This document shows positions 29,537-54,568 of a stretch of 54,568 nt of DNA, one piece after another. This DNA is from a bacterium. Its GTDB lineage: Bacteria; B130-G9. The stretch covers positions 1-54,568 of the forward strand of contig JAGHCW010000149.1 in assembly GCA_021160245.1 (NCBI GenBank). The letters are read 5' to 3'. Numbering within the stretch: the stretch's first letter is position 1; each line of letters opens with the position of its first letter. A model generated the notes under the pieces. It ran no database searches, was not told the origin of the DNA, and saw only the letters and a list, made by a program, of their open reading frames with translations. A program made the translations under genes and the position numbers.

Positions 29537-32500
29537 ATGTTGAAAAAGGCTATATTCGCAGCTGTTCTCTGCGTTTTTGCTTATGTTATTGTTGTTGCCG
29601 TCTCGCCGGGCGCGGAAGAGCCTCCGCTTCTCAAATTGCGAATGGGGTCATTTGTCCCATCTGAGATGTATAAGATGGCGATACCTGGCGAGTTCTTGGC
29701 GAATTCGTATCCCCCGGAAACTGAGGGGCTTTATGTTGTCCAGTTCGCAGGTCCTCCAACACCTGCTGAGAGGCAGGCGCTGCTTGACGCGGGTGGCGAG
29801 ATTGTGGGCTATTTGCCGGACTACGCGTTTATCGTGGCAATGTTCACTGACGCTTTTGCTCAAGTCTCGCTTTGGCCCGGGGATGGCTCGTGGGGAGCGG
29901 TCTGGGCGGGATTATATCAGCCGGCATTCAAGATAAGCCCGGAGCTCGTTGTCGGTGGCTCAGGCCAAGACGAGGCGCAGAGTGTGATCATTCAGCAATT
30001 CGGTCGAGGCGCGTTCGAGCTTGAGGAGCTTTCGCAGCTGGTTCTTGAATGTGGCGCTCGCGTCGAACTGCTTGATAGCAGCATCTTCAAAGATACTCAG
30101 CGGCTTAGGGTGAGGGTGGCCGGCGAAGACCTCTTGCAGCTTGTAACGGAGGTCTCGCGCAGAAGCAACGTGCTCTGGATCGACAAATACCATCCGCCAT
30201 TCTTGCTGAACGATAACTCGCGCTGGATATGTCAGTCCTACATCTCCCCGAGAACACCCGTTTGGGACAATGGGATACACGGCGAGGGCCAGATAGTCGG
30301 CGTTGCTGATACCGGCCTCGACGCAGATATGTGTTTTTTCTACGACGAGTCTGAGGGATTGCCCAGTTCGACGGTCAACAACAACCAGCGCAAGACAATT
30401 GTCTATTATGATCTCGCCGGCAATGGTGACTGGGACGGTCATAGCCACGGGACGCACGTTGCGGGCTCGATCGCTGGGGATAATTTCCTAACGCCCAACG
30501 GCTATGACTTTGGTGACGGCATGGCATATAATGCGAAGCTGGTGGTGCAGGATGTTGGAGCCGGAGGGTCGCTTGTTGGCTTGCCCGGCGACCTAAACAC
30601 TCTCTTCGACCAGGCGATGCAGGCTGGCGCAGTCATCCACTCAAATAGTTGGGGCTCCGGCGCTAATTACTATACGCCGTCTGCTCAGGACATTGATGAG
30701 TTCATGTGGGATAACCCCGACTTCCTCATTGTCGTCGCGGCTGGCAACGCCGGGCCAGAAGTTAATACAGTTGGCTCACCATCTACTGCGAAGAATCTCG
30801 TAACGGCCGGGGCGACTCAGAACAGTTATTCCGGGCAAGACCCGGACAACGTCGCGATATTCAGCAGCAACGGTCCCACCGCTGACGGCCGGACGAAGCC
30901 GACAGTCTGCGCTCCCGGACAAACGGTCAACTCCGCCGCGTGCGATTACAACGTGAGCTCGAACAACTGCGGCCTAATGATGATGCAGGGCACCAGCATG
31001 GCTTGTCCTGTAACCGCCGGCCTTTCCGCGCTTGTGCGTCAGTACTATGTTGATGGATACTACCCCACAGGCTCAAAAGTTCCGGGCGACGCCTTCATCC
31101 CAAGTGCTGCGCTATTGAAGGCTACTCTGGTGAATTGCGCTGCAAATATGTCCGGCGATTATATTGATGGCCCCATCCCGAGCACTGGCCAGGGCTGGGG
31201 GCGCATCCTGCTTGATGATGCGCTCTTCTTTCCAGGAGACGATTGCCAGCTGATGGTCTTCGACGTCTCGCCCGGCCTGCTGCACGGCCATAGCGATACG
31301 TTTGAGATCAAGAGCAATGGCTCCTGCAAGCTCGAGATAACTCTCGTATGGACAGATTATCCATCGACGCTATCCGCATCGCAGAACATAGTCAACAACC
31401 TTGACCTTGCGCTTGTAACGCCAGATGCGGCTACCTACAAAGGCAACAACTACTCTGGCGGCGCCTCGGTTGTCGGAGGCTCCTTTGACGCGATAAACGT
31501 TGTCGAGTGCATTCAGATAAATGAGCCTATATCTGGAAACTACGAGATAGAAATAACGGGGCACAATATTCCTTACGGGCCGCAGCCCTACGCCCTGGTA
31601 ATCACCGGCGCGGTAGCCAACGAGTCCCCAATTCTGTCTGATGCAAGCGTGACGCCCAGTTCCGGGAACGAAGATGACACCTTCACTTTCTCGGTCCATT
31701 ACTTCGACGAGGACGGCGACACGGCGGCGGTTCATCAGCTCTATATTGCAGACCAGGTCTTTGATATGTCCCTCACAGCCGGCTCATCAGCTGACGGAAC
31801 TTTTACATATCAGACTCAATTGCCCGCCGGTAATTTTCACCATCACTTCCAATTCTCAGACGGTCGAGGCGGTCTGACAAGGCTTCCGGAGACGAGCTCT
31901 TACAGTGGGCCATTAGTTGATGGCGATGCGCCGAACTCCACGTGCTCGTGCAATCAGTCCTCGGGAGACCCGATCATCGTGAACTACACGGTGTCCGATG
32001 TTGGCGGCACGGTGTACAAGACCGAGCTCTATTATCGCTATCAGGATGATGACTGGGCTTATACAGGCCTCTGGCAAGGGGGCACAACAGGATTTTTCAC
32101 GTTCCACCCAGCCGATGGCGAGGGGAACTACTATTTCTATACTATCTCCAGCGATACCGCCGGCAATGTTGAGGAGCCGCCTCTCACGTTCGACACGGCG
32201 TCCGTCTATGATATCCAGGCGCCATCTTCGTCCTGCACCGGGCCGGCCTATACATCATCGCAATTCGAGCTCCCATACGCCTCAGACGACGCAGATGGCT
32301 CCGGCGTCGCTACCACCTATTTGTGGTACCGCTATGAGGGAGGCGCATGGTCAAACAGCGGCCTAAACCAAAGCGAGGCGTCTGGCTCCTTCTCCTTCAC
32401 GGCCCCCTCCGGCGATGGCACATACTCATTCTATACAATCGCAGTCGATTTGGCCGGAAACCAAGAGCCGCCACCGCCCTCTCCGGACTGCGAAGTTGCC

Positions 32501-35500
32501 TCGGAGACAGTCGCGCCTCAGTCAACCTGCTCCGCGCCGCGTATCTCAAGACAGAGCGATATTGCAATCGACTTCACCGCATCCGACGCCCAGTCCGGCA
32601 TCCAGACCGTGCATCTGTGGTACAAACTCAACCAGGGCAGCTGGACGGACACATGGCTCGCAGAGGCTGGAGATGCTGGCGCGTTTGATTACCACGTCTT
32701 GACTGGCGATGGTAGATATTACTTTTATACGATAGCAACCGACCTGGCCGGCAATGTCGAGGGTCCTCCGGGCAACCCGGACACTTTGACCATCGTCGAT
32801 ACGACGAGGCCAGAATCGACCTGTACGGCCCCCGCTGGGGTCTCGGCGCCCCTGATACCGGTCTCCTTCATCGCAAGTGATGCAGGAACTAGTATAAGCC
32901 AAACGACGCTATTCTGGCGTTTTGAGGACGGCGCATTCCAGGACTCAGGGCTGGTCGAGGCGGGATTAGCCGGCCAGTTCGATTTCACTACAGCATCCGG
33001 GGAGGGTCACTATTTCTTCTATACGATTTCGGAAGACCAGGCGGGTAACGTCGAGGAGGCCCCGAGTGGATTTGACTCCGAAACACACTTAGACACGCTG
33101 GCGCCCTCATCTTCATGTTCATCGCCGGCCGCCGCGGCAACCCCATTCACGATCGCCTTCGAGTCAGAGGACGCAGGCTCCGGAGTGGGCACAACAAGTC
33201 TCTTCTGGCGCCTCGGGCAAGGCGACTGGGAAGAGTGGGAAACCCCAGTCGCCGGGGAGATAGGTGGCTTTGAATTCGCACCCACACAGGGCGATGGCCT
33301 CTACGGTTTCTATAGCATTGCGACTGACCTAGCGGGCAATCAAGAGCCGGACCCCGGAACCCCAGACACGGAGACCCTATTCGATACGGTGCCGCCCAGC
33401 TCCTCCTGCATCTGCCCCCGATATGCGACTATTGCCAGCATTGCTGTCTCATTCATCGCCTCGGACGACTCGTCAGGGCTGCTCTCAACGTCAATGTGGT
33501 ATCAAGTAAATGACGGCGAGTTTATCGATTCCGGGCAGCACATAGCGGGATTGGAGGGAACTTTCCACTTCATCCCTGAAGACGGCGAGGCCACATACAC
33601 ATTCTATACGGCTGCCGAGGACGCAGCCGGTAACCTGGAAGACCCACCCGTAGCCCCCGACGCCTCATGTGCATACGACATTACCGCGCCTCAAGCAACC
33701 TGCACCTCCCCCGATCGGGGCAACATGTCCCCAATCGTGGTGAACTTCACGGCAGAGGATGCAGTCGCGGGAGTCGCTTCCACCAGATTGCTCTTCAAAT
33801 TCAATGGCGGAGATTGGGAGGATTCAGGCCTATCTATGGTGTCTGATTCCGGCCAATTCACCTTTGCGCCGACCCTCGGAGCAGGGACGTATAGCTTTGC
33901 CGCTATCGCCCTTGACTGGGCTGGCAACGAGCAGGCATGGCCGGTCAGCCCCGACTGCGAGACCGTCTTCGATGAGAATATGCCCATATCAAGCTGCTCG
34001 GCGCCTCCAACATCCAACGAGGCAACGATAGAGGTGACATTCGAGGCGAGCGGCGGAATAAGCGGTCTTCAGCTTGTCGAGCTCTGGTTCGCTTATGAGG
34101 GTGGCGTTGCCGAAGATAGTGGTCTTTCCACAACTGAGGCATCCGGGACACTCTTATTTGAGCCCCGCATGGGTAACGGCCATTACACTCTCTTCACGAT
34201 TGCGACGAACAATGACGCTGTGCAAGAGGTGGCGCCTGAAACACCAGATGCCTCGATTCTTATAGACACGACTGCGCCAGTTACGACCTGCGACGCGCCC
34301 GAATACGCAACAATGGCCTCCGTCGCGATTGCCTTCACCTGTTATGACGCCTTCTCGGCCATTGATTATGTCGAGCTCCAATACAGTTTCAATCAGGGGG
34401 TGTATCACTGGCGTGAACGGGTGGACGGCGCCCCGGCGGGGACGTTTGTGTTCGATTTCCCAAGTGGTGAGGGGGTCTATGATTTCGATATCCTTGCTGC
34501 CGATGCGCTTGGCAACTGCGATGCTCCGGGTGACTCGCTCTGCAGCACAACTACATACGACGTGACGCCTCCCGACTCGTCGTGCGTCTCCCCCGCCTAC
34601 TGCAGCACAGCAACCCTAGCGGTCCAATATGAAGCTTCAGATACCCACTCAGGACTTGCAGATGTGGCTCTATTCTATCAGTTCGGTGAGGCCGGGTGGG
34701 AGCTCTTCGGCTCAGTCCCCTCCAGCGATGCAGGCTCTTATGAGCTCAACATTGGAGCACAGGAGGGTGCGTGGAGCTTCTATACAACCGCCGTCGATTT
34801 GGCCGGAAATGTTGAGGCGCAGCCGCCTGAAGCTGATAGCGTAACAGTAGTTGACAGGACACCACCCGGGGTCACTCTATCGACCCTAGCATGGGCGAAT
34901 CAGGCCGTGATCGATCTTGACTATGAGGCGTCGGACAGCCTTTCGGGTCTTCATCAGGTTGCGCTGTTGTATCGTTTCGACGGGGGTAGCTGGGTGGATA
35001 CAGGCGTTACTTCGGCAGAGGCAACTGGCGTGCTCCCGTTTGAGTTTGCCGATGGCGAGGGGTCCTATGATTTTGCGCTTATGGCTTGGGATATGGCTCG
35101 TAACTCGAACGGCCAGCCAACCGAGCCCCATGCAAGCACAATCTACGATGCGACCCCACCCACGTCGAGCTGTCTAGCTCCCGAGTATGCGACAACGCCC
35201 ACGATTTCCGTGCTATTCAGCGTCTTGGATGAGCTTTCAGGCATTATCACCACACGCCTCTTCTACCGACAGGCCGGCGGGGATTGGGCACCCCTCGAAG
35301 GGCATCTAGAAGGTGTGAGTGGCCAGTTCATTTTCGTGGCGCCCGTGGATGGTGCTTACCAGTTCTATACGGTCTCAACGGACGAAGCCGGAAACTCCGA
35401 GTCTGACAAGAACGCACAATGCGAGACAGTGGTCGATACCGAGGCGCCGGCCTCCAGCTGCGAGTGCCCGGAATACTCAAGTGGGGAGTTTGAGATAACA

Positions 35501-36997
35501 TTCACTGCGAGCGATGCTGTGGGGGGAATAGCTAGCGTCTCGCTATATTACAGAAGTGACGGCGTCGATTGGCAAGATACAGGACTGGTTGAGAGCACAG
35601 CATCCGGGGCGTTTGTTTTTGACCCGCAGGATGGCGACGGAGTATATTCTTTTGTCACAATGGCCTCGGATATTGTCGGTAATGTGGAGTCGCTCTTAAA
35701 CGATCCGGATTGTTTCATACTAGTCGATACGGTGACCCCATACTCGGCGGCGGATTGCGAATCGGTTACTAATCAGGAACCGTTTGAGGTCTCATACACC
35801 GCCTCGGATGAGACGAGCGGCGTCGCATCAGTTGAGCTTTATTACTCGAAGGATGCCGCCCCCTTCGCGACGACGGGCCTGACGTCCGACGGGACATCCG
35901 GGACGCTCCAGTTTGCCCTTGTGGAAGGTGATGGGACTTATGGGTTCTACGCGATTGCGACTGATAATGCGGGCAATGTTCAGGACTCGCCTGTTGAGGC
36001 GGACTGCACGGTATTGCTCGATACTGCGTCTCCGACATCCTCCTGTGCATCACCAGAGTCCGCTACTGAAGGCCCTATTCAGGTAACTTTCACCGCGAGC
36101 GATGCGGCTAGCGGGGTTGATCAGACGCGGCTTCTCTATCGCACTTCAAGAATAACCCCATGGCAGGACACAGGCCTTTCCTCGGCAGGTGAGTTTGGCG
36201 CGTTCGATTTCGACTTCCCTGATGGTGAGGGGCTTTATGAGTTCCAGACGGTTACTACAGATGTCGCCGGCAATGTCGAACCGGAGAGCGAAGTGCCCTG
36301 TTCATCCACAGAATATCAATCAGCCGCCTCTACGTTGTGGGTGTCATTTGACTCGCACGTCTTCGAGGCTATTCAGATTGGCGAACTTGGAACTGTTGAG
36401 CTGATCGTCCGAAATGACGGCAACGCGGACCTTGTCGTAGATACGATAGAGAGCAGCGGAGTTCCCTACTGGGTGGGTGGTCCTCAGCCGTTCACTCTTA
36501 TCCCAGGCGCACAGAGAGCATTGAATCTCTTCTTCTTACCTGTAAGCGAGTTCGTCGCGTCAGGGGAGATAGTTATTAGTTCTAACGACGTGGATGCCCC
36601 AGAGAAGACTATTGCCCTGACGGGTTCTGTTATCACCGGCATCAAACCGTTCCTGACCGTCGTTACAGAGCGGCCTGAGTATCATACATCGGACAGCGTC
36701 TGGGCGCTCTATGCGCTTGGCAACTGGGGCCCGGATGTCTCAGTGGACGCGTACGTTGCGATTCGGTTCCCCGGGGATTCGCAGCTACATTTCCTGATGG
36801 ACTTTTCGGACACGGCGACGCCCATTTCGCTCTTCTTGCCTCAAGGGACCTATATTCCGCCGACGACACTGCTTCAATTCCCCATAAATAGCCCGATAGC
36901 CCAAGGAGAATACGTCATGTACGCTGCTCTTTGTGAATCTGGATCCCATTTTGTGCCATTGAGCGATATTTCCGTGGCGACTTTCACATTCGAGTGA
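29537..36997 (+). CDS. Giant secreted subtilisin-like (S8) protease with 15 Ig-like repeats
   Basis: 2486 residues from ATG 29537 (GGGAGG upstream; TTG 29522 is too early). Signal peptide 1 to about 27; propeptide-like region to about 235; S8 catalytic domain about 240-545 with Asp258 (GVADTGLD), His304 (GHSHGTHVAG), Asn404 (AAGNAGPE) and Ser487 (GTSMACP). A jelly-roll domain follows (about 560-700, KLEITLVWTDYPS), then a module beginning ESPILSDASVTPSSG, 15 Ig-like repeats of roughly 95-100 residues, an ASPM/Hydin-like domain (about 2265-2370, FTLIPGAQRALNLFF) and a final module related to the C-termini of the propeller proteins at the window start. It is secreted or surface-bound. Natural substrate unknown. 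Confidence 0.95.
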   Translation: MLKKAIFAAVLCVFAYVIVVAVSPGAEEPPLLKLRMGSFVPSEMYKMAIPGEFLANSYPPETEGLYVVQFAGPPTPAERQALLDAGGEIVGYLPDYAFIVAMFTDAFAQVSLWPGDGSWGAVWAGLYQPAFKISPELVVGGSGQDEAQSVIIQQFGRGAFELEELSQLVLECGARVELLDSSIFKDTQRLRVRVAGEDLLQLVTEVSRRSNVLWIDKYHPPFLLNDNSRWICQSYISPRTPVWDNGIHGEGQIVGVADTGLDADMCFFYDESEGLPSSTVNNNQRKTIVYYDLAGNGDWDGHSHGTHVAGSIAGDNFLTPNGYDFGDGMAYNAKLVVQDVGAGGSLVGLPGDLNTLFDQAMQAGAVIHSNSWGSGANYYTPSAQDIDEFMWDNPDFLIVVAAGNAGPEVNTVGSPSTAKNLVTAGATQNSYSGQDPDNVAIFSSNGPTADGRTKPTVCAPGQTVNSAACDYNVSSNNCGLMMMQGTSMACPVTAGLSALVRQYYVDGYYPTGSKVPGDAFIPSAALLKATLVNCAANMSGDYIDGPIPSTGQGWGRILLDDALFFPGDDCQLMVFDVSPGLLHGHSDTFEIKSNGSCKLEITLVWTDYPSTLSASQNIVNNLDLALVTPDAATYKGNNYSGGASVVGGSFDAINVVECIQINEPISGNYEIEITGHNIPYGPQPYALVITGAVANESPILSDASVTPSSGNEDDTFTFSVHYFDEDGDTAAVHQLYIADQVFDMSLTAGSSADGTFTYQTQLPAGNFHHHFQFSDGRGGLTRLPETSSYSGPLVDGDAPNSTCSCNQSSGDPIIVNYTVSDVGGTVYKTELYYRYQDDDWAYTGLWQGGTTGFFTFHPADGEGNYYFYTISSDTAGNVEEPPLTFDTASVYDIQAPSSSCTGPAYTSSQFELPYASDDADGSGVATTYLWYRYEGGAWSNSGLNQSEASGSFSFTAPSGDGTYSFYTIAVDLAGNQEPPPPSPDCEVASETVAPQSTCSAPRISRQSDIAIDFTASDAQSGIQTVHLWYKLNQGSWTDTWLAEAGDAGAFDYHVLTGDGRYYFYTIATDLAGNVEGPPGNPDTLTIVDTTRPESTCTAPAGVSAPLIPVSFIASDAGTSISQTTLFWRFEDGAFQDSGLVEAGLAGQFDFTTASGEGHYFFYTISEDQAGNVEEAPSGFDSETHLDTLAPSSSCSSPAAAATPFTIAFESEDAGSGVGTTSLFWRLGQGDWEEWETPVAGEIGGFEFAPTQGDGLYGFYSIATDLAGNQEPDPGTPDTETLFDTVPPSSSCICPRYATIASIAVSFIASDDSSGLLSTSMWYQVNDGEFIDSGQHIAGLEGTFHFIPEDGEATYTFYTAAEDAAGNLEDPPVAPDASCAYDITAPQATCTSPDRGNMSPIVVNFTAEDAVAGVASTRLLFKFNGGDWEDSGLSMVSDSGQFTFAPTLGAGTYSFAAIALDWAGNEQAWPVSPDCETVFDENMPISSCSAPPTSNEATIEVTFEASGGISGLQLVELWFAYEGGVAEDSGLSTTEASGTLLFEPRMGNGHYTLFTIATNNDAVQEVAPETPDASILIDTTAPVTTCDAPEYATMASVAIAFTCYDAFSAIDYVELQYSFNQGVYHWRERVDGAPAGTFVFDFPSGEGVYDFDILAADALGNCDAPGDSLCSTTTYDVTPPDSSCVSPAYCSTATLAVQYEASDTHSGLADVALFYQFGEAGWELFGSVPSSDAGSYELNIGAQEGAWSFYTTAVDLAGNVEAQPPEADSVTVVDRTPPGVTLSTLAWANQAVIDLDYEASDSLSGLHQVALLYRFDGGSWVDTGVTSAEATGVLPFEFADGEGSYDFALMAWDMARNSNGQPTEPHASTIYDATPPTSSCLAPEYATTPTISVLFSVLDELSGIITTRLFYRQAGGDWAPLEGHLEGVSGQFIFVAPVDGAYQFYTVSTDEAGNSESDKNAQCETVVDTEAPASSCECPEYSSGEFEITFTASDAVGGIASVSLYYRSDGVDWQDTGLVESTASGAFVFDPQDGDGVYSFVTMASDIVGNVESLLNDPDCFILVDTVTPYSAADCESVTNQEPFEVSYTASDETSGVASVELYYSKDAAPFATTGLTSDGTSGTLQFALVEGDGTYGFYAIATDNAGNVQDSPVEADCTVLLDTASPTSSCASPESATEGPIQVTFTASDAASGVDQTRLLYRTSRITPWQDTGLSSAGEFGAFDFDFPDGEGLYEFQTVTTDVAGNVEPESEVPCSSTEYQSAASTLWVSFDSHVFEAIQIGELGTVELIVRNDGNADLVVDTIESSGVPYWVGGPQPFTLIPGAQRALNLFFLPVSEFVASGEIVISSNDVDAPEKTIALTGSVITGIKPFLTVVTERPEYHTSDSVWALYALGNWGPDVSVDAYVAIRFPGDSQLHFLMDFSDTATPISLFLPQGTYIPPTTLLQFPINSPIAQGEYVMYAALCESGSHFVPLSDISVATFTFE
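31925..36319 (+). repeat. Fifteen tandem Ig-like repeats in the subtilase
   Basis: Each unit starts D.xxPxSxCxxP, continues through a [VL]xFxAxDxxSG turn, a Tyr/Arg-rich strand with GxW, a GxFxF strand, DGxGxYxFYTIAxDxAGNxE and ends in a short Pro/Asp linker. Units begin near DAPNSTC, QAPSSSC, VAPQSTC, TRPESTC, LAPSSSC, VPPSSSC, TAPQATC, NMPISSC, TAPVTTC, TPPDSSC, TPPGVTL, TPPTSSC, EAPASSC, VTPYSAA and ASPTSSC. The units have diverged at DNA level, unlike those of the C25 protease at 51732. Confidence 0.9.
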
Positions 36998-37065
36998 TCC
37001 TATCAGGGGTATTCGACGGGCGCGGATGATATAGCGCCCACACGGAAAGATGCGACCCCGAGCAC

Positions 37066-37094
37066 GGCACTCACACCATACCCGAGTGGGTGCC
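37066..37094. terminator. Possible terminator between convergent genes
   Basis: GGCACTCAC (37066-37074) pairs with GTGGGTGCC (37086-37094), with one G-T pair, around an 11-base loop in the 108-base gap after the subtilase. The plus-strand tail CCTGGTCTTGGTTATT is only moderately T-rich. Confidence 0.35.
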
Positions 37095-37105
37095 CCTGGT
37101 CTTGG

Positions 37106-38761
37106 TTATTCGATGTGATAGACTGAGTATTTGCGGCCGCTATAAACTTTCTGAAAGGCCTTTAGCGCGTTGGGATCGTTTTGCGGTTCCTTCATTACGA
37201 GCCAATGTGAGTCAAACTCACGGGCGAGCATTGAGACGCGCTTGACGTTCATCAAGCGATATCCGAGATTTACTTCAGAGTAGCCCTTGATATCGTGCCG
37301 TCCGCTTATGAGCTCCATTCGACGGAGCCATTCGTCCGCGTCTGAGGCTTTCATTGGGAAGCACTTCCAGTCCGCAACGATGGCCCGGCGGGTGAGCAGT
37401 CTGAAGCCGGGCATCTTGGGGGGGACAATGAACATCGCGTCGGATGGGGTGTTTGACCGTATCCAAGTGTAAAGGGCGAACGTCCTCGAGTGCTTATCCC
37501 GAAAGACATTCGACTCCCGAATTCCCTCCCATGCGACAAAGGCGACGACGGCGATAAGGACTATGAGAATCGCCTTGGGTATGCGGTCAGCATAGGGTGC
37601 GAGTCTCCCTCGCGTGGCGTTTGCCGCCAAAAGCGTTGCGAGGGTCAGAATAATCAGCGAATAAAACAGGAGGCCGTACTCCGGCCCCTTCATCGGCCTG
37701 ACCAGGACAGTGGTAAAGCAGATGGCGGCGAGCACTAACCAAGCGGGGATATGTCGCGAATCACGCTCCGGCGAGAGAAGCGACGCGACGGCCCCGGCAA
37801 CGGCGATGAGCGCGGCGAGCGCGACAAAGGGCGCAACTCTGAAGAGGAATAGCGCGGCGACCGGCGTAACATAGATTGCGGTTGTGAAGAGGAAACCAAT
37901 CGCAAGGAGCGCAAGCATCGATATGAGAACGACGCGAGGCGGTCCGAGATCACCCCGCTCGGGTCTGCGGACCTTTAGGCCTATCAGACCGAGCATCAAC
38001 ATACCAAAGAACGAATAATATACGCAGCGTGACCAATCAAGCGGCATGTAATGATGAGGCGAGCGGATTGAAAGGAGTATGCTCTTGTCCTGAAGCCCGC
38101 CGCCTTCGAACATAAATTGGCAGATGGTCATCGCGGTCGGCAGGGAGAGAATCGCGAAGGGGAGCGTGATGCGCAGAATCCGCCTGAGCGAGGCGCGTTT
38201 GGGGAAGAATAGAAGGGGGCCTACCGTTGGGGGTATAATCACTAAGTAGTTGGCGTGCATCAAGGCGCTTGCCCCCAGAAGGACACCTGCAAGCAGGAAT
38301 CGCTCTCGGAAGAGCATGGCGACACCAAGAAGCAATAGCGTCGTGGCTATGCTTGTGGGGAAGATGGCCTTTGGCAGCACCGGCGCGCTCAGCACCTCGT
38401 GTTTGAGGAACAACAGAATCAGGATGAGGGTTATCGTATAGGTGAAAAGGGGCCGTTCATAGAAGCGCTCGATCAAGAGCCAGACAGCCAGCGCAAAGGC
38501 AATTGAGCAAAGAAGTTGCGCCACAGTGGTCACCCAAACAATCGGGCCTAAGTAAAGAAGAGCAAGGATGAAATAGCCGAATACCGTGTGGTGATGCTCC
38601 GTTTCCCAAGTGAACCAATCGCGCCTGATGAAGTCGGGGTCCTTCATTCGCAAGCCGAACAGAAGATACTGGTTCTGGTCGGAATACGGGAAGATACAGC
38701 CGACGCCGAGCGCGAAAAGGACGGCGAGCAGGCCGACACATATTATGCGTGATCTGGTCAT
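37106..38761 (-). CDS. Polytopic membrane protein, GT-C-like
   Basis: 551 residues with about 10-12 membrane segments. After the first helix comes FPYSDQNQYLLFGLRMKDPDF, an acidic loop where GT-C glycosyltransferases carry catalytic Asp residues. The soluble C-terminal part contains NTPSDAMFIVPPKMPGFRLLTRRAIVADWKCFP, resembling the conserved end of the DUF6798-type membrane proteins. It is the last gene of a three-gene group with a methyltransferase and a GT2 transferase, overlapping the methyltransferase stop by 4 bases. Transfer of a sugar from a lipid carrier is a reasonable inference; donor and acceptor are unknown. Confidence 0.65.
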   Translation of the reverse strand: MTRSRIICVGLLAVLFALGVGCIFPYSDQNQYLLFGLRMKDPDFIRRDWFTWETEHHHTVFGYFILALLYLGPIVWVTTVAQLLCSIAFALAVWLLIERFYERPLFTYTITLILILLFLKHEVLSAPVLPKAIFPTSIATTLLLLGVAMLFRERFLLAGVLLGASALMHANYLVIIPPTVGPLLFFPKRASLRRILRITLPFAILSLPTAMTICQFMFEGGGLQDKSILLSIRSPHHYMPLDWSRCVYYSFFGMLMLGLIGLKVRRPERGDLGPPRVVLISMLALLAIGFLFTTAIYVTPVAALFLFRVAPFVALAALIAVAGAVASLLSPERDSRHIPAWLVLAAICFTTVLVRPMKGPEYGLLFYSLIILTLATLLAANATRGRLAPYADRIPKAILIVLIAVVAFVAWEGIRESNVFRDKHSRTFALYTWIRSNTPSDAMFIVPPKMPGFRLLTRRAIVADWKCFPMKASDADEWLRRMELISGRHDIKGYSEVNLGYRLMNVKRVSMLAREFDSHWLVMKEPQNDPNALKAFQKVYSGRKYSVYHIE

Positions 38762-39444
38762 CCCTTTCTACCTCGCGCCGCCATATTAAGATATATGGCC
38801 CCGAATGGGTAGCCGAACTTATCCAGAACTCGAAGCAATGGGCGCGTCGCGGCAATCACGAAAGGGAAGAGGTGCAAGCCTCTCATCTTCTCTATCTTCA
38901 TCCCGTCTCCGCTCAGCCAGCCCCTCAGCTGCCACCAGCCCGGCCAATTCTCGTGACCTTTGAATGGCCGCAAATGAAGGATTCTCGCCACCACGCAAGA
39001 CCAATACCAGAACCTGTTCGGACACGTTACGACAAGTATGCCACCGGGCTTGAGCACTCGGACAAGCTCCCCGACGGCCCGGCTGGGTGACGTCGTGTGC
39101 TCTATCGCCTCTGAGCAGAGAACAACATCAAACGTGTTGTCGCGAAACTGCATGGTTAGGATGCTGCCGGCCGTTCGAAGCGAATGGCATTTTTGTCCCA
39201 CCATCTCAAGTAACGCCGGTCCGATGTCGAGGCTCACGACATTTGCGCCTCGTTTCGCAGCCTCGGCGCTAAACCAGCCGGTTCCGCAGCCGGCGTCGAG
39301 AACGCTTGCGGAATCGAGCTCCTCGGCGGTCAACATCTCGCCGAAGACAATCTCTAGTCGCCTCTTAAGGTCGTATTCGTCCATAAGCTGGTCGAACTCG
39401 TGGGCGATGCCATTGTAGAAGCGGTCTTTATTGTGCATCGACAC
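38758..39444 (-). CDS. Class I SAM-dependent methyltransferase
   Basis: 228 residues. Motif I is VLDAGCGTGWFS (48-59), followed by VVSLDIGPALLEM, FDVVLCSEAIEHTTSP and LVRVLKPGGILVVTCPNRFW, the order of UbiE/type-11 methyltransferases. The basic C-terminal end is unusual (LNMAARGRKG). GTG 39444 is the given start (ATG 39438 is possible); it overlaps the GT2 gene by 17 bases and the next gene by 4, so the three are cotranscribed. The target is probably a sugar or lipid-linked glycan given its neighbours, but that is inference. Confidence 0.85.
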   Translation of the reverse strand: MSMHNKDRFYNGIAHEFDQLMDEYDLKRRLEIVFGEMLTAEELDSASVLDAGCGTGWFSAEAAKRGANVVSLDIGPALLEMVGQKCHSLRTAGSILTMQFRDNTFDVVLCSEAIEHTTSPSRAVGELVRVLKPGGILVVTCPNRFWYWSCVVARILHLRPFKGHENWPGWWQLRGWLSGDGMKIEKMRGLHLFPFVIAATRPLLRVLDKFGYPFGAIYLNMAARGRKG

Positions 39445-40381: not shown

Positions 40382-40467
40382 CTTACCATATCAATTCTCT
40401 AGTGCCCCGTGTGGGGTCAGTTTATCAACCGTCCCCCAAAGCTCGAGGCCATAACATCACACGTGCC

Positions 40468-45065: not shown

Positions 45066-45086
45066 AAGCCGTACCGACCCATGAGG

Positions 45087-46301: not shown

Positions 46302-46413
46302 ATCATCCTCCTTTGAAACAACTCAAGCGAATTAGTATCGCGCTCAACCCATGCCCTCAAACAGCACAACGGCAAATCGCCTCAAACGAAAGGGACCAAA
46401 AAACCGCTCTGCC

Positions 46414-46722
46414 TCAAACTTCAAACCGCCTCGCGCTCGGCGGCCTGTGACTTCTTAGCCGACTCAAAAGGAGCCGACTTGCCCTCAATACGACTTTGCG
46501 CCTCGAGGTGACCGCAACTGTCTGCCCAGTCTTTGGATTTCTCCTCTGCGCGGACTCATAATCCCTCGAAAAAAACGCCCCAAATCCTCTGAACTCGACA
46601 CGCCGACCTTCAGACAATGCACAGACAACGCTTGAGAGAAACTCATCGATCATCGGCTCGATTTCATCCTCAGGCATTGGTGTTTTCGCCGCTATCGTCC
46701 TCAACAGGTCCGGCCTATTCAT
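46414..46722 (-). CDS. HU/IHF-family DNA-binding protein
   Basis: 102 residues. The HU fold is clear: NRPDLLRTIAAKT, a helix, then GRRVEFRGFGAFFSRDY and RRNPKTGQTVAVTSRRKVVLRASRLLLSRL. The DNA-gripping arm has RNPKTG as in HU/IHF. The C-terminus is extended by a basic Arg/Ser/Pro tail (RSHRPPSARRFEV). Its ATG overlaps the stop of the DUF362 gene, so expression is coupled. HU-type proteins bend and compact DNA; a specific target is not evident. Confidence 0.9.
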   Translation of the reverse strand: MNRPDLLRTIAAKTPMPEDEIEPMIDEFLSSVVCALSEGRRVEFRGFGAFFSRDYESAQRRNPKTGQTVAVTSRRKVVLRASRLLLSRLRSHRPPSARRFEV

Positions 46723-47888
46723 TTATTCACCGGCTCATCGGCCTTTTTTTGTGCCCGCACTCTGCGCAGGATTCTGCCCCAGAACGACTGCTTGAGAACG
46801 ATGGCGCCGTGCGGGCATATCTCAAAACAACAATAGCATTTTATACATCTTGAATAGTCTATCCGGCAGTATTTGTCAATCATAATAGCGCCAACTGGAC
46901 AAATCTCGGCGCACAGACCACAACTTGTGCAATATTCTTCTTGAACCAAGACCACACCCCTGTAGAGGCCCAGAAAAAGGTCAGTCAGATGCTCCAAAAG
47001 CGGATTGGCTCGCAGCAGTAGTCGAGGCGGAATATCGAACTTGCATGTAACGTCCGAAAGCGGCTCACCAACGACCTCTATGCGGTCCAATGGTTCGGCA
47101 AGTCCCCTTGAAATCGTTTCCTTAACCGTGTGAACACTCCCCGGACCAAGACCCGCCACATTGCAGGCGACAACGTCGAGGTTGGCGCAATTCTTCGAAG
47201 CCAACACAAGGCCCACCTCTTTCCGCTCCCCTGACGCCGGACCGTGCCCCTGCATACCAATCACGGCGTCCATTAGGACAAGCCCTTTGCCGATGCCGGA
47301 ATAAAGATCAACAATCGCCTCGCAAAAAGTCTCATATCGCTTCAGCCGATGAAGCCGGCGCCTCTCCGACAGAGGCAGCGCACCGAACCAGTTCTTGACC
47401 GCGCCGGTGAAGACGGTCTGGACGTGTGTTTTCATCTTTGGTAGCGAGACAATCAGCTCGGATTCAAGCAAGAGCCGCGAGACTAGGACCTTTGTTATTT
47501 TCTTTCCACCGGGAATGGGAATCTCCTTGTACCCTTTGCTCGAGAGCGTGACAATCTTGGTCCCCTCCTCAAGACACATCGCCTCGTAGCCGGAGCTTCT
47601 GAAGCACTCGTCAGTAATGGAGAGCGGGCCGGGCGAATCTGATACCGTGGGCGTCGCGCCAAGGGCTTTCAGATGCCTGATTACTGCCCTTGTGAACTCA
47701 ATATGGGTATTTGCCGGAATCTCTTCCGTGCCGCCCGAGAGGTGGTTGATCTTGACCAGAACATCTTTGCCCCGGTAGAGGTTTTTGGCATTCGGTTCAG
47801 CTAGATCAAACGACTCCGCAATTGCCGGAGATAGTTCCCCTTGATCGTAGTTTCGGCATCTAACAATCGAGACTCTGTTGTCAATCAT
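46719..47888 (-). CDS. DUF362 protein with two C-terminal 4Fe-4S clusters
   Basis: 389 residues. The DUF362 part (about 1-300) has VSIVRCRNYDQGEL, VLVKINHLSGGTEEIPANTHIEF, SLPKMKTHVQTVFTGAVKNWFG and VVACNVAGLGPG. The C-terminal ferredoxin-like part has CTSCGLCAEICP and CIKCYCCFEICPHGA, two CxxCxxCxxxCP motifs for two 4Fe-4S clusters, then a basic tail. DUF362-ferredoxin proteins are widespread in anaerobes with unknown substrate. It begins 7 bases after the kinase gene and overlaps hupA-like gene by 4 bases. Confidence 0.9.
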   Translation of the reverse strand: MIDNRVSIVRCRNYDQGELSPAIAESFDLAEPNAKNLYRGKDVLVKINHLSGGTEEIPANTHIEFTRAVIRHLKALGATPTVSDSPGPLSITDECFRSSGYEAMCLEEGTKIVTLSSKGYKEIPIPGGKKITKVLVSRLLLESELIVSLPKMKTHVQTVFTGAVKNWFGALPLSERRRLHRLKRYETFCEAIVDLYSGIGKGLVLMDAVIGMQGHGPASGERKEVGLVLASKNCANLDVVACNVAGLGPGSVHTVKETISRGLAEPLDRIEVVGEPLSDVTCKFDIPPRLLLRANPLLEHLTDLFLGLYRGVVLVQEEYCTSCGLCAEICPVGAIMIDKYCRIDYSRCIKCYCCFEICPHGAIVLKQSFWGRILRRVRAQKKADEPVNK

Positions 47889-47895
47889 CTCTCGC

Positions 47896-49290
47896 TCATC
47901 GCTTGAGTTTTCTCTGGATCAGAAAGAGCAACGCTGAGAGCACAATCAGAGCGCCAAGAAGAAAGAATATCAACACTGAAGGATGCTGCCTCGAGAAATG
48001 CTGAATATATGCAATCGCTGCTCGCACATAGAGCGAGACCGAGCCCGGAACCTCATTGATTCCGCTAATGTATGTTTGATAGGCGCCATAATAGTCGAGC
48101 TGCTCCTCGTATTGCTTAGCGACACTGATGATATGTCTGACCATACCAGAGCTCTCAAAATGGGTCCGAATGGCAATGAACGCGACGACCGCAAGAAGTA
48201 ATATGAAACAAAACAGCGCGGCGCTTAGGAGGCGCCACTTCCGATCTGCCCAAATGGGTCGCCGCGACTCCGGCGCCTTGATTATGGGCGGGCGCTGAGT
48301 CTTGACTGGAACGGGCGTAGGGCTCTCCTCATCAGGAACACCCTCCGTCTGCTCAATACTCCGCTCCATGTGCTCCAGTATCTCGGTGCTCTTCCTGAAC
48401 CGTTTGCTCGGCTTCTTCGCCATTGCCTTCAGAATCATGTAACTGATCCACGGCGGCAGCTCCGGTCGAAGCCGCTTCGGAGATTCCGGAGGCTTTCTCA
48501 GATGAGCCATGATGAGTGCGACTGATGTCTCCCCGGTGAATGGCAGCTTCCCGGTGAACATCTCGTACATCACAACACCCAGCGAATAGATGTCCGATCT
48601 TGCGTCAACAGTCTTGCCACTAACCTGCTCCGGCGACATGTAGTCGGGCGTTCCGAGTATCATCCCAGTGTGCGAAATCGATCTGCCTCCGAGATGTCTC
48701 GCCAACCCGAAATCGACTATCTTGACGCCCAGATTCTTAGTGATAAGTATGTTCTGCGGTTTAATGTCACGATGCACAACACCAACTTGATGAGCAGCAT
48801 CCAGGCCGAGGCAGACCTGTGAGATGATCGTTTTGGCTTTCTGAATATCGAACTGGCCCTCGTTCCTGATCATTTGCTTTAAGCTCTGACCCTCCACAAA
48901 CTCCATCACAATCACGCATGAGCCGGCGAGCTCCAAGACGTCAAAGGGGCGTATCACGTTGGGATGGGCGACTCGCTTCGCAATCTTGAGCTCCCCTAGG
49001 AACCTCGCATGAACTCCCTCTTCGCTCATAATCGCCGGATTCAGGACCTTGAGGGCAACTGAACGTTTCGCCTCGAGGTCCTGGGCCCGGAATACCCGAC
49101 CGAAGCCGCCTTTGCCAACCTCAGAGATGATCTCGTAACGGTCAGCGACCTTCGCGCCGCTTTCGAACGAAGGAAGCTTGTCTATTCTCGTGGGCTCATC
49201 GTCCCCTGCTAGGAGACAGCCACAGCTCGGGCAATTAGCAATCGCATCTTCGATCACATTTCCGCATTCTGGACACTGTATCATCATCAA
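47896..49290 (-). CDS. PknB-type Ser/Thr kinase with an N-terminal zinc ribbon
   Basis: 464 residues. CPECGNVIEDAIANCPSCGC (6-25) is a CxxC...CxxC zinc ribbon. The kinase domain (about 52-320) has GKGGFGRVF (ATP loop), VALKVLN (Lys81), HRDIKPQN (Asp175) and DFGLAR (193-198), then GTPDYMSPEQ; all catalytic residues are present. After a Pro-rich linker come two membrane helices (about 352-375 and 440-458) around a roughly 60-residue external loop with a short TPR-like helix pair (YYGAYQTYISGINEVPGSV). It is the first gene of the long dnaN/guaA run. A sensor role for the loop is inferred. Confidence 0.9.
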   Translation of the reverse strand: MMMIQCPECGNVIEDAIANCPSCGCLLAGDDEPTRIDKLPSFESGAKVADRYEIISEVGKGGFGRVFRAQDLEAKRSVALKVLNPAIMSEEGVHARFLGELKIAKRVAHPNVIRPFDVLELAGSCVIVMEFVEGQSLKQMIRNEGQFDIQKAKTIISQVCLGLDAAHQVGVVHRDIKPQNILITKNLGVKIVDFGLARHLGGRSISHTGMILGTPDYMSPEQVSGKTVDARSDIYSLGVVMYEMFTGKLPFTGETSVALIMAHLRKPPESPKRLRPELPPWISYMILKAMAKKPSKRFRKSTEILEHMERSIEQTEGVPDEESPTPVPVKTQRPPIIKAPESRRPIWADRKWRLLSAALFCFILLLAVVAFIAIRTHFESSGMVRHIISVAKQYEEQLDYYGAYQTYISGINEVPGSVSLYVRAAIAYIQHFSRQHPSVLIFFLLGALIVLSALLFLIQRKLKR

Positions 49291-49505
49291 GGCCTCTACA
49301 TCGCCAAATTATGGAATCCCGAAACAGAGAATAGACTCTTAATTGCACGTCTCGCAACCCCTGCAAATCTTTCGAGAATGCGAGCCAATTCTCTGCAGTC
49401 ATTTCCGGCCTTCACAATCGGAATGCTATCTGATATTCTGCTGCCTTTGGTCAGTCTATTACAGGTTTACGGTTTAACAGCAAATGATTTAAGGAGAGCC
49501 GAGAC

Positions 49506-52500
49506 ATGTTGGCAATACCAGCGAAATCGACCACTATATACATCGCGGCGCTTTGGATAGTGCTGCTTGTTCTAGGAGGCGCAGTCGCATCGGGGCGGGA
49601 GAGCATTGAGCTAGAGGTCGTAGCCGGTAGCTATGACATATCAAGCAATGTTCACCGCCTGGATGTGATTCACATGGAGGGATTCAAGACGATAGGCGCC
49701 CCGGGCTCGCCGAAGCTGCCTCGAGAGGTCCTGGACGTTGCGCTACCGCCGGACGTGGACTGGGATAGCATTAGCGTTACGACGACGGATGTTGAAAAGT
49801 CCCTACTGGACGGGAATTATGACATTGCCCCGGCGCCTCCGATAGCCGCCTGGCCAGAGGGTGGCGAGAAGATCGTCTCATGGGGCGACGCCACTCTCAT
49901 CGAGGACGGTAAGGACATGGCTATCTACCGCAAGGACGCTCATTTCCCGGCCGATAGTGTGCGGATAGAGGCTCTCTCACAGATGAGAAAGTGGAAGTTT
50001 GTCAGGATTGAGTTCACGCCTGTTGCGTATAATCCGATGAGGCGCTCATTGTTGCTGACGACGAGCGCTCGCATCATCGTGGACTACGATCGTGGCGGAG
50101 AGTCCGAATCTCTTGAGCTTCTTAAGGACACTGTCATGGACGATCTGGCCGAGAGCCGTTTTGTCAACTTCGACGAGGCCAGAAAGTGGTATTCCCCCAG
50201 TTGGAGCCTTTCCTCGCGCTTCGGGCCCGGCATTCCATCATACGATTACGTGATCATCACCACAAACGCCATTGAGGCAGGAAGCAGCAAGCTCTCAAGT
50301 TTTGTGACGCACAAGAGCTCGCAGGGCTTCAGCAACGTCGTTGTTATCACTGAAGATGAGTATTCTGGCCTAACCGGACAGGCGCCAAACGGGACCGCGG
50401 AGAAGATGCGGCAATGGCTCATTAACAACTACTCTTATGGAATCGAGTATGTGCTGTTCATTGGTGACCCTGATCCTGCCAGCGGCGACGTCCCAATGAA
50501 GATGTGCTGGCCCAGGTGGGACGAGGCATCTTACAGGGAATCCCCGACCGACTATTTTTATGCCGACTTGACCGGCAACTGGAACAAGGACGGTGATTCA
50601 TACTTTGGCGAATATGGTGACGACACGGGCACCGGTGGAGTTGATCTGACCGCTGAGGTTTATGTGGGCCGAATCCCCGTTTACGGCGGCGATTACACGA
50701 CGCTGGACAACATCTTACAGAAGACGATGGACTATCAAAACGCCACGGGAGGTTTGGCGTGGCGTGACAAGATACTGCTGCCAGAGAGCTTCTCCGATTC
50801 GACCACGGACGGCGCTTATCTTGGCGAGAGCATCATGGACGACTATCTGACGGCAGCCAGCTTCTCGTCATACAAGCTGTACCAACAGGGCGCCTGCGGG
50901 GCCAATTCTACTTTCAGTAGCGACGAGGAGCTCGTGACCAATGCGACCTGGAATCATTGGAAACAGACGGCAAACGCCTACGGGCTAGTTACATGGTGGG
51001 GCCACGGCAGCCAATCTAGCGCCTCAATTGGATACAGTGGGCAATGGTGCGGGACACTGCTTACCGCCTCCAATTGCCCCACCCTCGATGACACCAAGCC
51101 GGCCATCGTCTATCTATGCAGCTGCTTGAATGGGTATCCAGAGAACAGCGGCAACCTCGCCTTCGCCCTGCTTAAGTCCGGAGCGATCGCAGCGGTCGGC
51201 GCATCGCGCGTCTCTTGGTATGGCGTCGGTTGGAACGCGCCTACGAGCGGTTTGACAAACGCAGACCTCGGCTATCAGATGGACAAGAAGATGGCGCAGA
51301 ACTCATATCCGGTTGGCAAGGCGCTTGCGATTGCCAAATCAACTCTAGACCCCTCAACCTACGGCGAGCTCTATATGAATGCCTTTGACTTCAACGTCTA
51401 TGGCGATCCCCAAGTTCATTACGCTCAGGCTGGCAGCGGCAACCAGTATCCCGTGCTCTCAGGTGGGGATGTCGATCCAGATTACGGCAAATCAAGCACA
51501 ACGTTTACGTTCTCCGTGCATTACGACGACGCAGACAGCGACAGCCCTTCGGTCAAGCAGGTCTATATCGATGGCGCCCCTCACGACATGAGCGGCAGCG
51601 GAGCAGACTCCACATATACGTATGCAACAAGCGCTCTCGCCGCAGGCAGCCACAATTACTACTTCTATTTTGAGGACGGCAATGGCGGCTCAGACCGCGA
51701 CCCGGACTCTGGGACGCATTCAGGGCCTGCAGTCGATGACACAGCTCCCTCCTCGAGCTGCAGCAGCCCGACTTATAGCAATAGCACGAGCATCGACGTT
51801 GACTTCGACGCGTCGGATGCCGGGGGCTCCGGTCTCAAGCAGACCAAGTTGTACTACAAATATGAGTCGGGATCGTGGGGGTATCACTCTATTAAGACCG
51901 GCGCCAGCGGAACGTTCAGCTTCACAGCGTCACTCGGCAGTGGAACATACTACTTCCAGACCGTGGCAGAGGACAACGCCGGGAACTTTGAGTCTGCAGC
52001 TTCTGGCAGCGGGGATGATTCCACCATCTACGATGCGACCGATCCCTCCTCGAGCTGCAGCAGCCCGACTTATAGCAATAGCACGAGCATCGACGTTGAC
52101 TTCACAGCCTCGGATACAGGGGGCTCCGGTCTCAAGCAGACCAAGTTGTACTACAAATATGAGTCGGGATCGTGGGGGTATCACTCTACTAAGACCGGCG
52201 CCAGCGGAACGTTCAGCTTCACGGCGGCGGACGGCGAGGGAATGTACTACTTCCAGACCGTGGCAGAGGACAACGCCGGAAACACGGAGGCCGGACCATC
52301 AGGCGACGGCGACGACTCCACCATCTACGATGGGACAGTCCCCTACTCCAGCTGCTCAAGTTCCTCTTATACCAATAATTCAGCCATCACGGTTAGCTTC
52401 AATGCCGCTGACAGCGGCGGCAGCGGGTTGTTCCAGACGAAGCTCTACTACAAGTATGAATCCGATTCATGGACATATCACTCAACTAGGACCACATCGA

Positions 52501-54568
52501 GCGGAACATTCAGCTTCACAGCATCAGATGGTGAGGGCACATACTACTTCCAGACGATAGCTGAGGACCTTGCCGGAAACACGGAGGCCGGACCTGCTGG
52601 CAGCGGGGACGATGCCACTTTCTATGACATCACTGCCCCCTCCTCCAGCTGCACAAGTCCAACGTACGGCGGCGCATCTGGCATACCCGTCTCATTCAAT
52701 GCGTCCGACCCATCAGGAAGCGGAGTAAGCCAGACCGAGCTTTACTACAAGCTCGGCGCCGGCTCGTGGGCCCACTATGCGAATGAGAACGGAACCAGCG
52801 GCTCGTTCAACTTCGTGCCATCTGATGGCGAGGGGACATATTACTTCCAGACCGTCGCGGAGGACAACGCCGGCAACAAAGAGGCCGATCCCTCCGGAAA
52901 CGGCGATGACTCGACTATATATGACGAGGAAGCCCCGTCTTCAAGCTGCACCAGCCCTCAATACAGCACCGTGCCGGAAATCAGTGTGGACTTTATCGCC
53001 TCCGATACCGGCGCAAGCGGTCTTAAGACCACGGAGCTCTGGTACAGCAGAGATGGCGGCTCATGGACACTTTTCGACTCTGAAACTGGCGCCGCGGGGA
53101 CGTTCAATTTCGTCGCGCCATCTGGCGAGGGCGTCTATAATCTCCAGACGATAGCCGAAGATAACGCCGGCAACCGTGAGTCCGGCCCTTCAGGCGAAGG
53201 AGACGACTCCACAACCTACGATGCAACCGCGCCTCAGTCAGCAGGCGCCAGCCCGGAATTCGCCAATACTTCGCCGATTGCCGTGAACTTCGATTCGTCT
53301 GATGAGGTATCAGGCGTATCAGAAATCTGCCTCTTCTACCGATTTGAGGGCGGAACCTGGCAATCATACGAGTGCACATCGGCCACAGTCGGCTCATTCG
53401 ATTTCGAGCCATCTGACGGCGATGGCATCTATGAGTTTTACACGATAGCGACGGATAACACGGGCAACGTTGAGGCGGACCCGGTAGATGTGGATGATTC
53501 CACCGAATACGACACGATTGCCCCTCAGTCATCCTGCACCAGCCCGACGTGTGCCAACGCCTCTCCGATCGCCGTTGACTTCACAGCCAGTGACAGCCCG
53601 TCGTCTGGAGTGGCTGAGACCCGCCTCTTCTATAGATTCAATGGCGGCGATTGGACCGACAGCGAATTGACCGAGACCGGAACGTCTGGCAGTATCGACT
53701 TCGAGCCATCAAACGGCGAGGGCGAGTACGAGTTCTACACAATCGCGACCGATAACGCCGGCAACGTTGAGGCGGCGCCGGGGGAGGCGGACGATTCGAC
53801 TGAATACGATACGACCTCGCCACAGAGCAGCTGCTCATCACCGACGTACTCGAACTCCAACGACATTGCCGTAACCTACAACGCCTCAGACTCAGGCTCC
53901 GGTATCTCATCTGTGAATTTGTGCTACAAATTCGGAGCGGGTGGAAGTTGGACCTTTACCAACCTATTTGATATCGCCACCAGTGGGCAGCTGGATTTTG
54001 TCGCCTCGGACGGCGATGGCGCTTACTACTTCTATACAGTTGCCGAGGATTTGGCCAACAACTTCGAGGCAAACCCCTCCGGCGATGGCGACACATCGAC
54101 AATAATCGATACTGCGCCTCCTGCGAGCAGCTGCGGCAGCCCGGAGTTTGCGAACTCATCGCCGATCGCGGTGAGCTTCACAGCCAACGACAGTTCTTCT
54201 TCCGGCATCGCCTCAGTTGCCCTTTGGTATAGCATCAACGGTGGTGGTTGGACCGACAGCGGCCTTTTTGACACTGGCACAGATGGCGCATTCGATTTCA
54301 TACCGTTGGATGGTGACGGCGAATACGAGTTTTACACAATCGCGACCGATAACGCCGGAAACGTTGAGGCTGCGCCTGGGGCAGCGGACGATTCGACCGG
54401 ATACGACACAGTCGCGCCTCAGTCATCCTGCCAAAGCCCGGAGTTTGCGAACTCATCCCCAATCGCGGTGAGCTTCACAGCCAACGACAGTTCTTCTTCC
54501 GGCATCGCCTCAGTTGCCCTTTGGTATAGCATCAACGGTGGTGGTTGGACCGACAGCGGCCTTTTTGA
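49506..54568 (+). CDS. Gingipain-type (C25) secreted cysteine protease with Ig-like repeats (3' end outside window)
   Basis: 1687 codons open to the window edge without a stop. ATG 49506 follows AAGGAG by nine bases. Signal peptide about 1-30 (IYIAALWIVLLVLGGAVAS); propeptide-like region to about 230 (IGAPGSPKLPREVLDVALPPD is typical of C25 propeptides); catalytic domain about 235-640 with DYVIITTNA, VGRIPVYGG, His500 (WWGHGS) and Cys540 (CSCLNG). A module beginning YPVLSGGDVDPDYG, shared with the subtilase, precedes nine full Ig-like repeats and a tenth cut by the edge. Secretion signals at the true C-terminus are not visible. The 215-base gap before it shows no clear promoter. Confidence 0.9.
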   Translation, partial: MLAIPAKSTTIYIAALWIVLLVLGGAVASGRESIELEVVAGSYDISSNVHRLDVIHMEGFKTIGAPGSPKLPREVLDVALPPDVDWDSISVTTTDVEKSLLDGNYDIAPAPPIAAWPEGGEKIVSWGDATLIEDGKDMAIYRKDAHFPADSVRIEALSQMRKWKFVRIEFTPVAYNPMRRSLLLTTSARIIVDYDRGGESESLELLKDTVMDDLAESRFVNFDEARKWYSPSWSLSSRFGPGIPSYDYVIITTNAIEAGSSKLSSFVTHKSSQGFSNVVVITEDEYSGLTGQAPNGTAEKMRQWLINNYSYGIEYVLFIGDPDPASGDVPMKMCWPRWDEASYRESPTDYFYADLTGNWNKDGDSYFGEYGDDTGTGGVDLTAEVYVGRIPVYGGDYTTLDNILQKTMDYQNATGGLAWRDKILLPESFSDSTTDGAYLGESIMDDYLTAASFSSYKLYQQGACGANSTFSSDEELVTNATWNHWKQTANAYGLVTWWGHGSQSSASIGYSGQWCGTLLTASNCPTLDDTKPAIVYLCSCLNGYPENSGNLAFALLKSGAIAAVGASRVSWYGVGWNAPTSGLTNADLGYQMDKKMAQNSYPVGKALAIAKSTLDPSTYGELYMNAFDFNVYGDPQVHYAQAGSGNQYPVLSGGDVDPDYGKSSTTFTFSVHYDDADSDSPSVKQVYIDGAPHDMSGSGADSTYTYATSALAAGSHNYYFYFEDGNGGSDRDPDSGTHSGPAVDDTAPSSSCSSPTYSNSTSIDVDFDASDAGGSGLKQTKLYYKYESGSWGYHSIKTGASGTFSFTASLGSGTYYFQTVAEDNAGNFESAASGSGDDSTIYDATDPSSSCSSPTYSNSTSIDVDFTASDTGGSGLKQTKLYYKYESGSWGYHSTKTGASGTFSFTAADGEGMYYFQTVAEDNAGNTEAGPSGDGDDSTIYDGTVPYSSCSSSSYTNNSAITVSFNAADSGGSGLFQTKLYYKYESDSWTYHSTRTTSSGTFSFTASDGEGTYYFQTIAEDLAGNTEAGPAGSGDDATFYDITAPSSSCTSPTYGGASGIPVSFNASDPSGSGVSQTELYYKLGAGSWAHYANENGTSGSFNFVPSDGEGTYYFQTVAEDNAGNKEADPSGNGDDSTIYDEEAPSSSCTSPQYSTVPEISVDFIASDTGASGLKTTELWYSRDGGSWTLFDSETGAAGTFNFVAPSGEGVYNLQTIAEDNAGNRESGPSGEGDDSTTYDATAPQSAGASPEFANTSPIAVNFDSSDEVSGVSEICLFYRFEGGTWQSYECTSATVGSFDFEPSDGDGIYEFYTIATDNTGNVEADPVDVDDSTEYDTIAPQSSCTSPTCANASPIAVDFTASDSPSSGVAETRLFYRFNGGDWTDSELTETGTSGSIDFEPSNGEGEYEFYTIATDNAGNVEAAPGEADDSTEYDTTSPQSSCSSPTYSNSNDIAVTYNASDSGSGISSVNLCYKFGAGGSWTFTNLFDIATSGQLDFVASDGDGAYYFYTVAEDLANNFEANPSGDGDTSTIIDTAPPASSCGSPEFANSSPIAVSFTANDSSSSGIASVALWYSINGGGWTDSGLFDTGTDGAFDFIPLDGDGEYEFYTIATDNAGNVEAAPGAADDSTGYDTVAPQSSCQSPEFANSSPIAVSFTANDSSSSGIASVALWYSINGGGWTDSGLF
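51732..54568 (+). repeat. Tandem Ig-like repeats in the C25 protease, some nearly identical in DNA
   Basis: Units of about 297 bases start near 51735, 52035, 52335, 52634, 52934, 53225, 53516, 53813, 54112 and 54412. Units 1 and 2 share a 54-base block exactly (51747 and 52044, 297 apart), and units 9 and 10 are nearly identical with the same 297-base offset right up to the window end. The protein consensus matches the subtilase repeats (SSSCxxPxY, SGLxxTxLYYK, GTYYFQTVAEDNAGN). Confidence 0.9.

Follow-up and report, generated by a model that had tools for sequence, protein, structure and literature searches.

In Bacteroidota, the type IX CTDs form a single domain family that stands C-terminally on many unrelated exported proteins, and C25 proteases are typical cargo. 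SLH modules are terminal as well: one to three copies sit at either terminus of proteins whose heads are unrelated. SiiE, one of the giant Ig-repeat adhesins, is exported by type I secretion. A literature search found no papers on sorting domains in candidate phyla and nothing comparable for Coatesbacteria. The domain described here, referred to as the terminal domain, resembles the T9SS CTD in being one family located C-terminally on many unrelated exported proteins, and resembles SLH modules in layout, as it occurs at either end, in one to three copies and on unrelated heads. Unlike the T9SS CTD, it can also follow the signal peptide directly and occur in tandem copies, no CTD model matches it and SprA was not found. 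Unlike SLH modules, it is a predicted β-sandwich, and the 21 members searched matched neither PF00395 nor any other Pfam or NCBIfam family beyond chance.

The window, that is, the whole stretch of DNA analysed (54,568 nt), is contig C202 in its entirety, one of 244 contigs in an assembly of 3.43 Mb. Three Coatesbacteria loci (L156, L157 and L159) have ORFs of 4020, 2046 and 3822 aa, and ORFs of 4020, 2046 and 3824 aa occur in G002, which belongs to the same family as the host. The host, an uncultured bacterium, is therefore probably a member of Candidatus Coatesbacteria, a phylum sampled here by four genomes (its own and three sisters, G001, G002 and G003); tests for absence were run on these four, which are 83–95% complete. 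Both LpxB and BamA are encoded within the window, and a diderm cell is therefore expected. The features of the window are collected in Table 1, together with the tails found on relatives of its C25 head in the four genomes.

Table 1. Coordinates of the two proteases, their modules and neighbouring genes, and tails joined to C25-type heads.
Feature	Position or contig	Strand	Source
End of a protein with two terminal domains (278-643, 719-1096), without repeats; cut by contig start	2..1099	+	
128-aa secreted protein, signal peptide and adaptor-family module only	1589..1975	+	
β-propeller protein with two terminal domains (3255-3617, 3681-4058), without repeats	2064..4061	+	
S8 (subtilase) protease, 2486 aa	29537..36997	+	translation, Pfam/NCBIfam, HMM
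S8 catalytic domain PF00082, residues 249-555	30281..31201	+	Pfam
Adaptor module (PILSDASVTPSSG...FTFSVHY) in S8 protein, ∼13 residues ahead of first repeat	31628..31891	+	
15 tandem Ig-like (Big_13-type) repeats, ∼97 aa each, S8 protein	31928..36319	+	iterated HMM
Choice-of-anchor-D / HYDIN-type Ig domain, S8 protein	36290..36595	+	sub-threshold match
Shared terminal domain (122 aa, predicted β-sandwich), S8 protein, ending at stop codon	36629..36994	+	
C25 (gingipain-family) protease, at least 1687 aa, runs off contig end	49506..54568	+	
C25 propeptide PF08126, E 3e-13	49656..50186	+	Pfam
C25-type catalytic domain; invariant His500 (51003), Cys540 (51123)	50220..51470	+	
Adaptor module (PVLSGGDVDPDYG...FTFSVHY) in C25 protein	51450..51707	+	
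C25 stalk, 9 full Ig-like repeats (51744-54410) and one cut by contig end	51744..54566	+	iterated HMM
C25-head tail: adaptor and repeats	window		
C25-head tail: adaptor modules and terminal domain, without repeats	C115, G002:C258		
C25-head tail: FnIII-like	C197, C27, G001:C57, G002:C209		
C25-head tail: β-helix, then FnIII-like tail	C154		

The S8 protein is composed of a signal peptide, the S8 domain, an adaptor module, 15 Ig-like repeats, a choice-of-anchor-D-like domain and the terminal domain, in this order. PF00082 is matched over the full length of the profile (E 6e-42; 144 bits against a cut-off of 21.8), and D258, H304 and S487, taken as the catalytic triad by analogy with other subtilisins, were located in the sequence, placing the protein in subtilase family S8. 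The second protease required a less direct assignment. Its own catalytic domain did not match PF01364 in Pfam at E≤0.1 and found no match in a sequence search of the PDB. Paralogues in the same genome that align with this domain match PF01364 with E-values of 7e-58 and 2e-54, and in that alignment His500 and Cys540 are the only invariant His and Cys fitting the C25 pair. The protein was assigned to peptidase C25 because of its PF08126 propeptide and these PF01364-scoring paralogues that share its invariant His–Cys pair; as judged from sequence, it carries both the propeptide and a predicted catalytic domain with the His and Cys of the family. Immediately upstream of the C25 gene, the opposite strand carries a gene for a eukaryote-like Ser/Thr protein kinase (47896-49290, minus strand).

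A preliminary description of this locus had proposed that the two proteases share one module and one family of repeats, 15 in S8 and at least nine in C25. This is confirmed: the adaptor module directly precedes the repeats in both proteins, and an iterated HMM started from a single repeat recovered all 15 S8 repeats and nine full plus one truncated C25 repeat as significant matches, the repeats being ∼97 residues long in both proteins. The adaptor module extends beyond the two proteases: 19 ORFs carry 34 copies in total, and nine proteins have its end ∼12–15 residues ahead of the first repeat. The small secreted protein built from this module sits between two terminal-domain genes at the start of the window. 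Terminal-domain genes on contig C201 and in the sister G001 likewise have similar small adaptor proteins encoded next to them (L070 and L073 on C201, L231 in G001); the small adaptor protein and the neighbouring terminal-domain protein may work together.

The repeats match two known families, Big_13 (PF19077; 82.6 and 76.8 bits for the two proteases against a cut-off of 27) and the OmpL47-type NF047446 (119.8 and 107 bits against a cut-off of 40), all being whole-protein scores. Unlike other occurrences of Big_13, they have undergone a lineage-specific expansion, reaching ∼33 repeats per protein in a sister genome. The repeat profile gave at least 151 matches in the host genome, and the regions examined there contain 204 near-complete repeats in 23 ORFs, whereas outside the host's taxonomic family a match at E≤1e-6 was seen in just 2 of 56 genomes. 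The preliminary description had named a generic Ig family lacking enrichment in this genome as the outcome that would speak against a common device. Half of this was found, in that the family is generic and spread over several phyla; the lack of enrichment was not, the repeat being strongly enriched. The heads of the repeat proteins, as identified by Pfam, are PQQ-type β-propellers, two-component-regulator propellers, right-handed β-helices, C25 and S8. Among named genomes, the best repeat matches fall in Candidatus Coatesbacteria, followed by scattered ones in Chloroflexota, Krumholzibacteria and Thermoplasmatota. Reading of the tail sequences revealed that the same repeat family precedes a T9SS-CTD-like tail in Krumholzibacteria and a transmembrane helix in Thermoplasmatota, so that one Ig stalk is combined with a terminal device that varies from phylum to phylum.

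Repeat identity is 0.342 within one protein and 0.334 between proteins, and recent homogenisation was ruled out as the source of similarity for most proteins on this ground; it does hold for the C25 protein (identity 0.55) and for the array on contig C209 (0.60). A structural model of two adjacent repeats, built from those of C25, has a pLDDT of 97, and its neighbours are SiiE Ig domains (Foldseek E 1.4e-6, TM 0.59), the Deinococcus HPI S-layer protein and FnIII pairs. The prediction fits a rod-like stalk. SiiE differs from the proteins described here in having no exchangeable enzymatic head. At position 6 of the repeat, 55% of all copies have a cysteine (14 of the 15 S8 repeats and 8 of the 9 C25 repeats); it has no regular partner in the same repeat, a second cysteine near position 91 being present in a minority. 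Two long stalk proteins of G001, L251 (C84; at least 6033 aa, 31 repeats) and L252 (C120; at least 4247 aa, 33 repeats), both end in two terminal domains.

When the tails following the repeats were aligned, they formed a domain of ∼122 residues ending at the stop codon. The host genome has 131 matches to this terminal domain, and the three sister genomes have from 42 to at least 150. Among 96 ORFs examined in the host genome, the domain lies within 20 aa of the stop in 77, near the N-terminus after a signal peptide in 14 and elsewhere or not clearly placed in 5. A stop codon is visible in 18 repeat ORFs, of which 17 terminate with this domain; the exception, on C78, stops without the domain near a contig end. 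The search model was trained on C-terminal copies, and G001, which was outside the training, served as an independent check: of its 25 terminal domains, 19 lie within 12 aa of the stop, two within 18 aa, four just after the signal peptide and none centrally. In a domain-wide search of 193 genomes, 10 had any match. Genomes outside the phylum that have the domain include G050, G079 and G089, and the end preference recurs in two of these other lineages (G089 and G050). The domain occurs in one to three tandem copies, and its position has switched at least twice on the tree. Its cargo includes enzymes, non-enzymatic β-propellers, FG-GAP proteins and giant stalk proteins. In three host proteins (L084, L088 and L116), the order is signal peptide, terminal domain and then a domain of the sulfatase-modifying-factor (FGE) type.

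Many exported proteins carry the terminal domain without repeats, and most terminal-domain proteins of the host genome have no stalk. The terminal domain, not the stalk, is the most widely shared part of this set of proteins; it had no name before and is phylum-wide here, while the other parts are of known kinds. Of the common architecture set out in the preliminary description, the module and the repeats therefore stand, with this most widely shared part missing from it. The further proposal that the repeats are a common stalk or anchoring device is upheld for the stalk, which is found under catalytic and non-catalytic heads alike. It is not upheld for anchoring: most terminal-domain proteins lack a stalk, which rules the stalk out as the anchor. 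Since other terminal devices follow the same repeat in other phyla and stalk-less terminal-domain proteins exist, the stalk looks like a portable, optional spacer and the terminal domain is the better anchor candidate.

The model of the terminal domain (pLDDT 94) is an eight-stranded β-sandwich with several conserved aromatic positions. A sequence search of the PDB returned no match. By predicted fold, the nearest solved structures are RbmA (Z 10.6 over 104 residues, rmsd 2.5) and CARDB (Z 9), and further neighbours include domains that bind carbohydrate, for instance Wzt-C and glycoside hydrolase accessory domains. Z values of 8–10 are common among β-sandwiches, and the likeness serves only as a lead on function. 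RbmA and CARDB differ from the terminal domain in sequence (∼10% identity, no common family match), and RbmA consists of two FnIII domains without a cargo head. RbmA of Vibrio cholerae binds exopolysaccharide (PMC5605196).

The window ends inside a C25 repeat, and its last ∼134 bases copy positions 54138-54271 at 99% identity; this near-identical duplicate is the likely cause of the assembly break. Four contigs start inside a repeat array. C209 is the nearest of them to the C25 repeats (mean identity 0.52 versus 0.35–0.39) and begins a few residues past the repeat point at which the window ends; it encodes seven repeats, an anchor-D-like domain and two terminal domains. The missing end of the C25 gene thus probably lies on C209. 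An intact C25-like ORF on C195 (L054) shows the same order of head, adaptor, repeats and terminal domain. Relatives of the C25 head in the four genomes bear different tails (Table 1), so that one protease head is joined to different tails even within one genome.

A hydrophobic N-terminus is present in 71 of the 78 terminal-domain proteins whose N-terminus is complete. None of 75 C-terminal copies is followed by a hydrophobic or LPxTG/PEP tail, and the exosortase family PF09721 had no match in the four genomes; exosortase/PEP-CTERM-type processing was rejected on these two results, as were LPxTG tails. Membership of T9SS was likewise rejected: TIGR04183 and TIGR04131 did not match any of the 21 terminal-domain members in NCBIfam at E≤1, and SprA was found in none of the four incomplete genomes, the Krumholzibacteria positive control scoring 509 bits. 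A T2SS operon is present on contig C4, with GspD at 446 bits against a cut-off of 351, GspG above its cut-off and close matches for GspF and GspE. To our knowledge, T2SS substrates have no recognisable sequence signal, and the assignment of a route consequently rests on which machines were found. On that basis, Sec plus T2SS would be the simplest export route. In two sisters, a secretin gene of a pilus/T2SS-like cluster adjoins a terminal-domain β-helix gene (L230:5027-9059 in G001:C108; G003:C7).

These results lead us to view the two proteases as members of a modular kit of exported proteins that would leave the cell by Sec and T2SS and be retained by the terminal domain, a reading to which we give about an even chance. 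Confidence in the kit architecture itself is high: every member has a signal peptide, a head that can be exchanged (S8, C25, β-propeller, β-helix and sulfatase-modifying-factor fold, among others) and one to three terminal domains, frequently with an adaptor module and, in some members, with a stalk of 2–33 repeats. Confidence in the terminal domain as the anchor is moderate. In the proposed mechanism, Sec would carry the protein over the inner membrane and T2SS would take it, already folded, through the outer one; the terminal domain would then hold it non-covalently, probably via a glycan, on the cell surface or in the extracellular matrix, and the stalk would set the distance between head and surface. 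A broader proposal, somewhat more tentative, is that the terminal domain is a new, unnamed surface-display module of Coatesbacteria, carried at either protein end by ∼100 proteins per genome that it would keep on the envelope or matrix, and that it takes the place of the T9SS CTD, SLH or sortase systems found in other phyla.

The preliminary description had suggested looking for a shared C-terminal sorting signal in the complete C25 gene. A C-terminal domain common to many proteins was indeed found, and it could act as the secretion or sorting signal of a dedicated system similar to the T9SS CTD, recognised at the outer membrane and then cleaved or attached. Its C-terminal placement in 77 of 96 ORFs, its phylum-wide distribution over more than 100 unrelated cargos and the status of C25 proteases as classic T9SS cargo elsewhere agree with such a role. 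The domain nevertheless follows the signal peptide directly in 14 ORFs of the host genome and in 4 of 25 cases in G001, comes in two or three tandem copies, and has changed position at least twice on the tree; SprA, detected in the Krumholzibacteria control, was not detected in the four genomes. We regard a sorting signal as improbable. As far as sequence can tell, a terminal position at either end would be a better fit for a surface-attachment module than for a C-terminal secretion signal, and the shared domain is more readily understood as the former.

Attachment need not be to the cell. The terminal domain might instead be a CBM-like binder of substrates or polymers that aims secreted enzymes at food particles, as its fold neighbours Wzt-C and the glycoside hydrolase accessory domains, together with the conserved aromatic positions, would allow. 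We consider this unlikely, if slightly less so than a sorting signal: the aromatics may be core residues, the domain is also found on non-enzymatic β-propellers, FG-GAP proteins and giant stalk proteins, and one family across unrelated heads suits a common site better than many substrates. Some terminal domains may bind substrates all the same. It is as doubtful as the sorting signal that the proteins have no common route or anchor, the lineage having just reshuffled and multiplied the Ig-like domains of its secreted proteins, with the terminal domain as one more structural bead. The repeat does belong to a generic Ig family of many phyla, and its nearly equal identity within and between proteins is what an old shuffled pool would give; a mere bead, however, would be expected in mid-protein and inside the arrays, and the terminal domain is almost only terminal.

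Retention by the terminal domain remains our preferred reading of the kit. Type IX CTD, SLH and PEP-CTERM domains allow a surface proteome to be read from the genome. With an HMM built from the terminal domain (alignment A2/A4), the likely surface proteins of an entire candidate phylum could be listed, and a testable anchor would be at hand.
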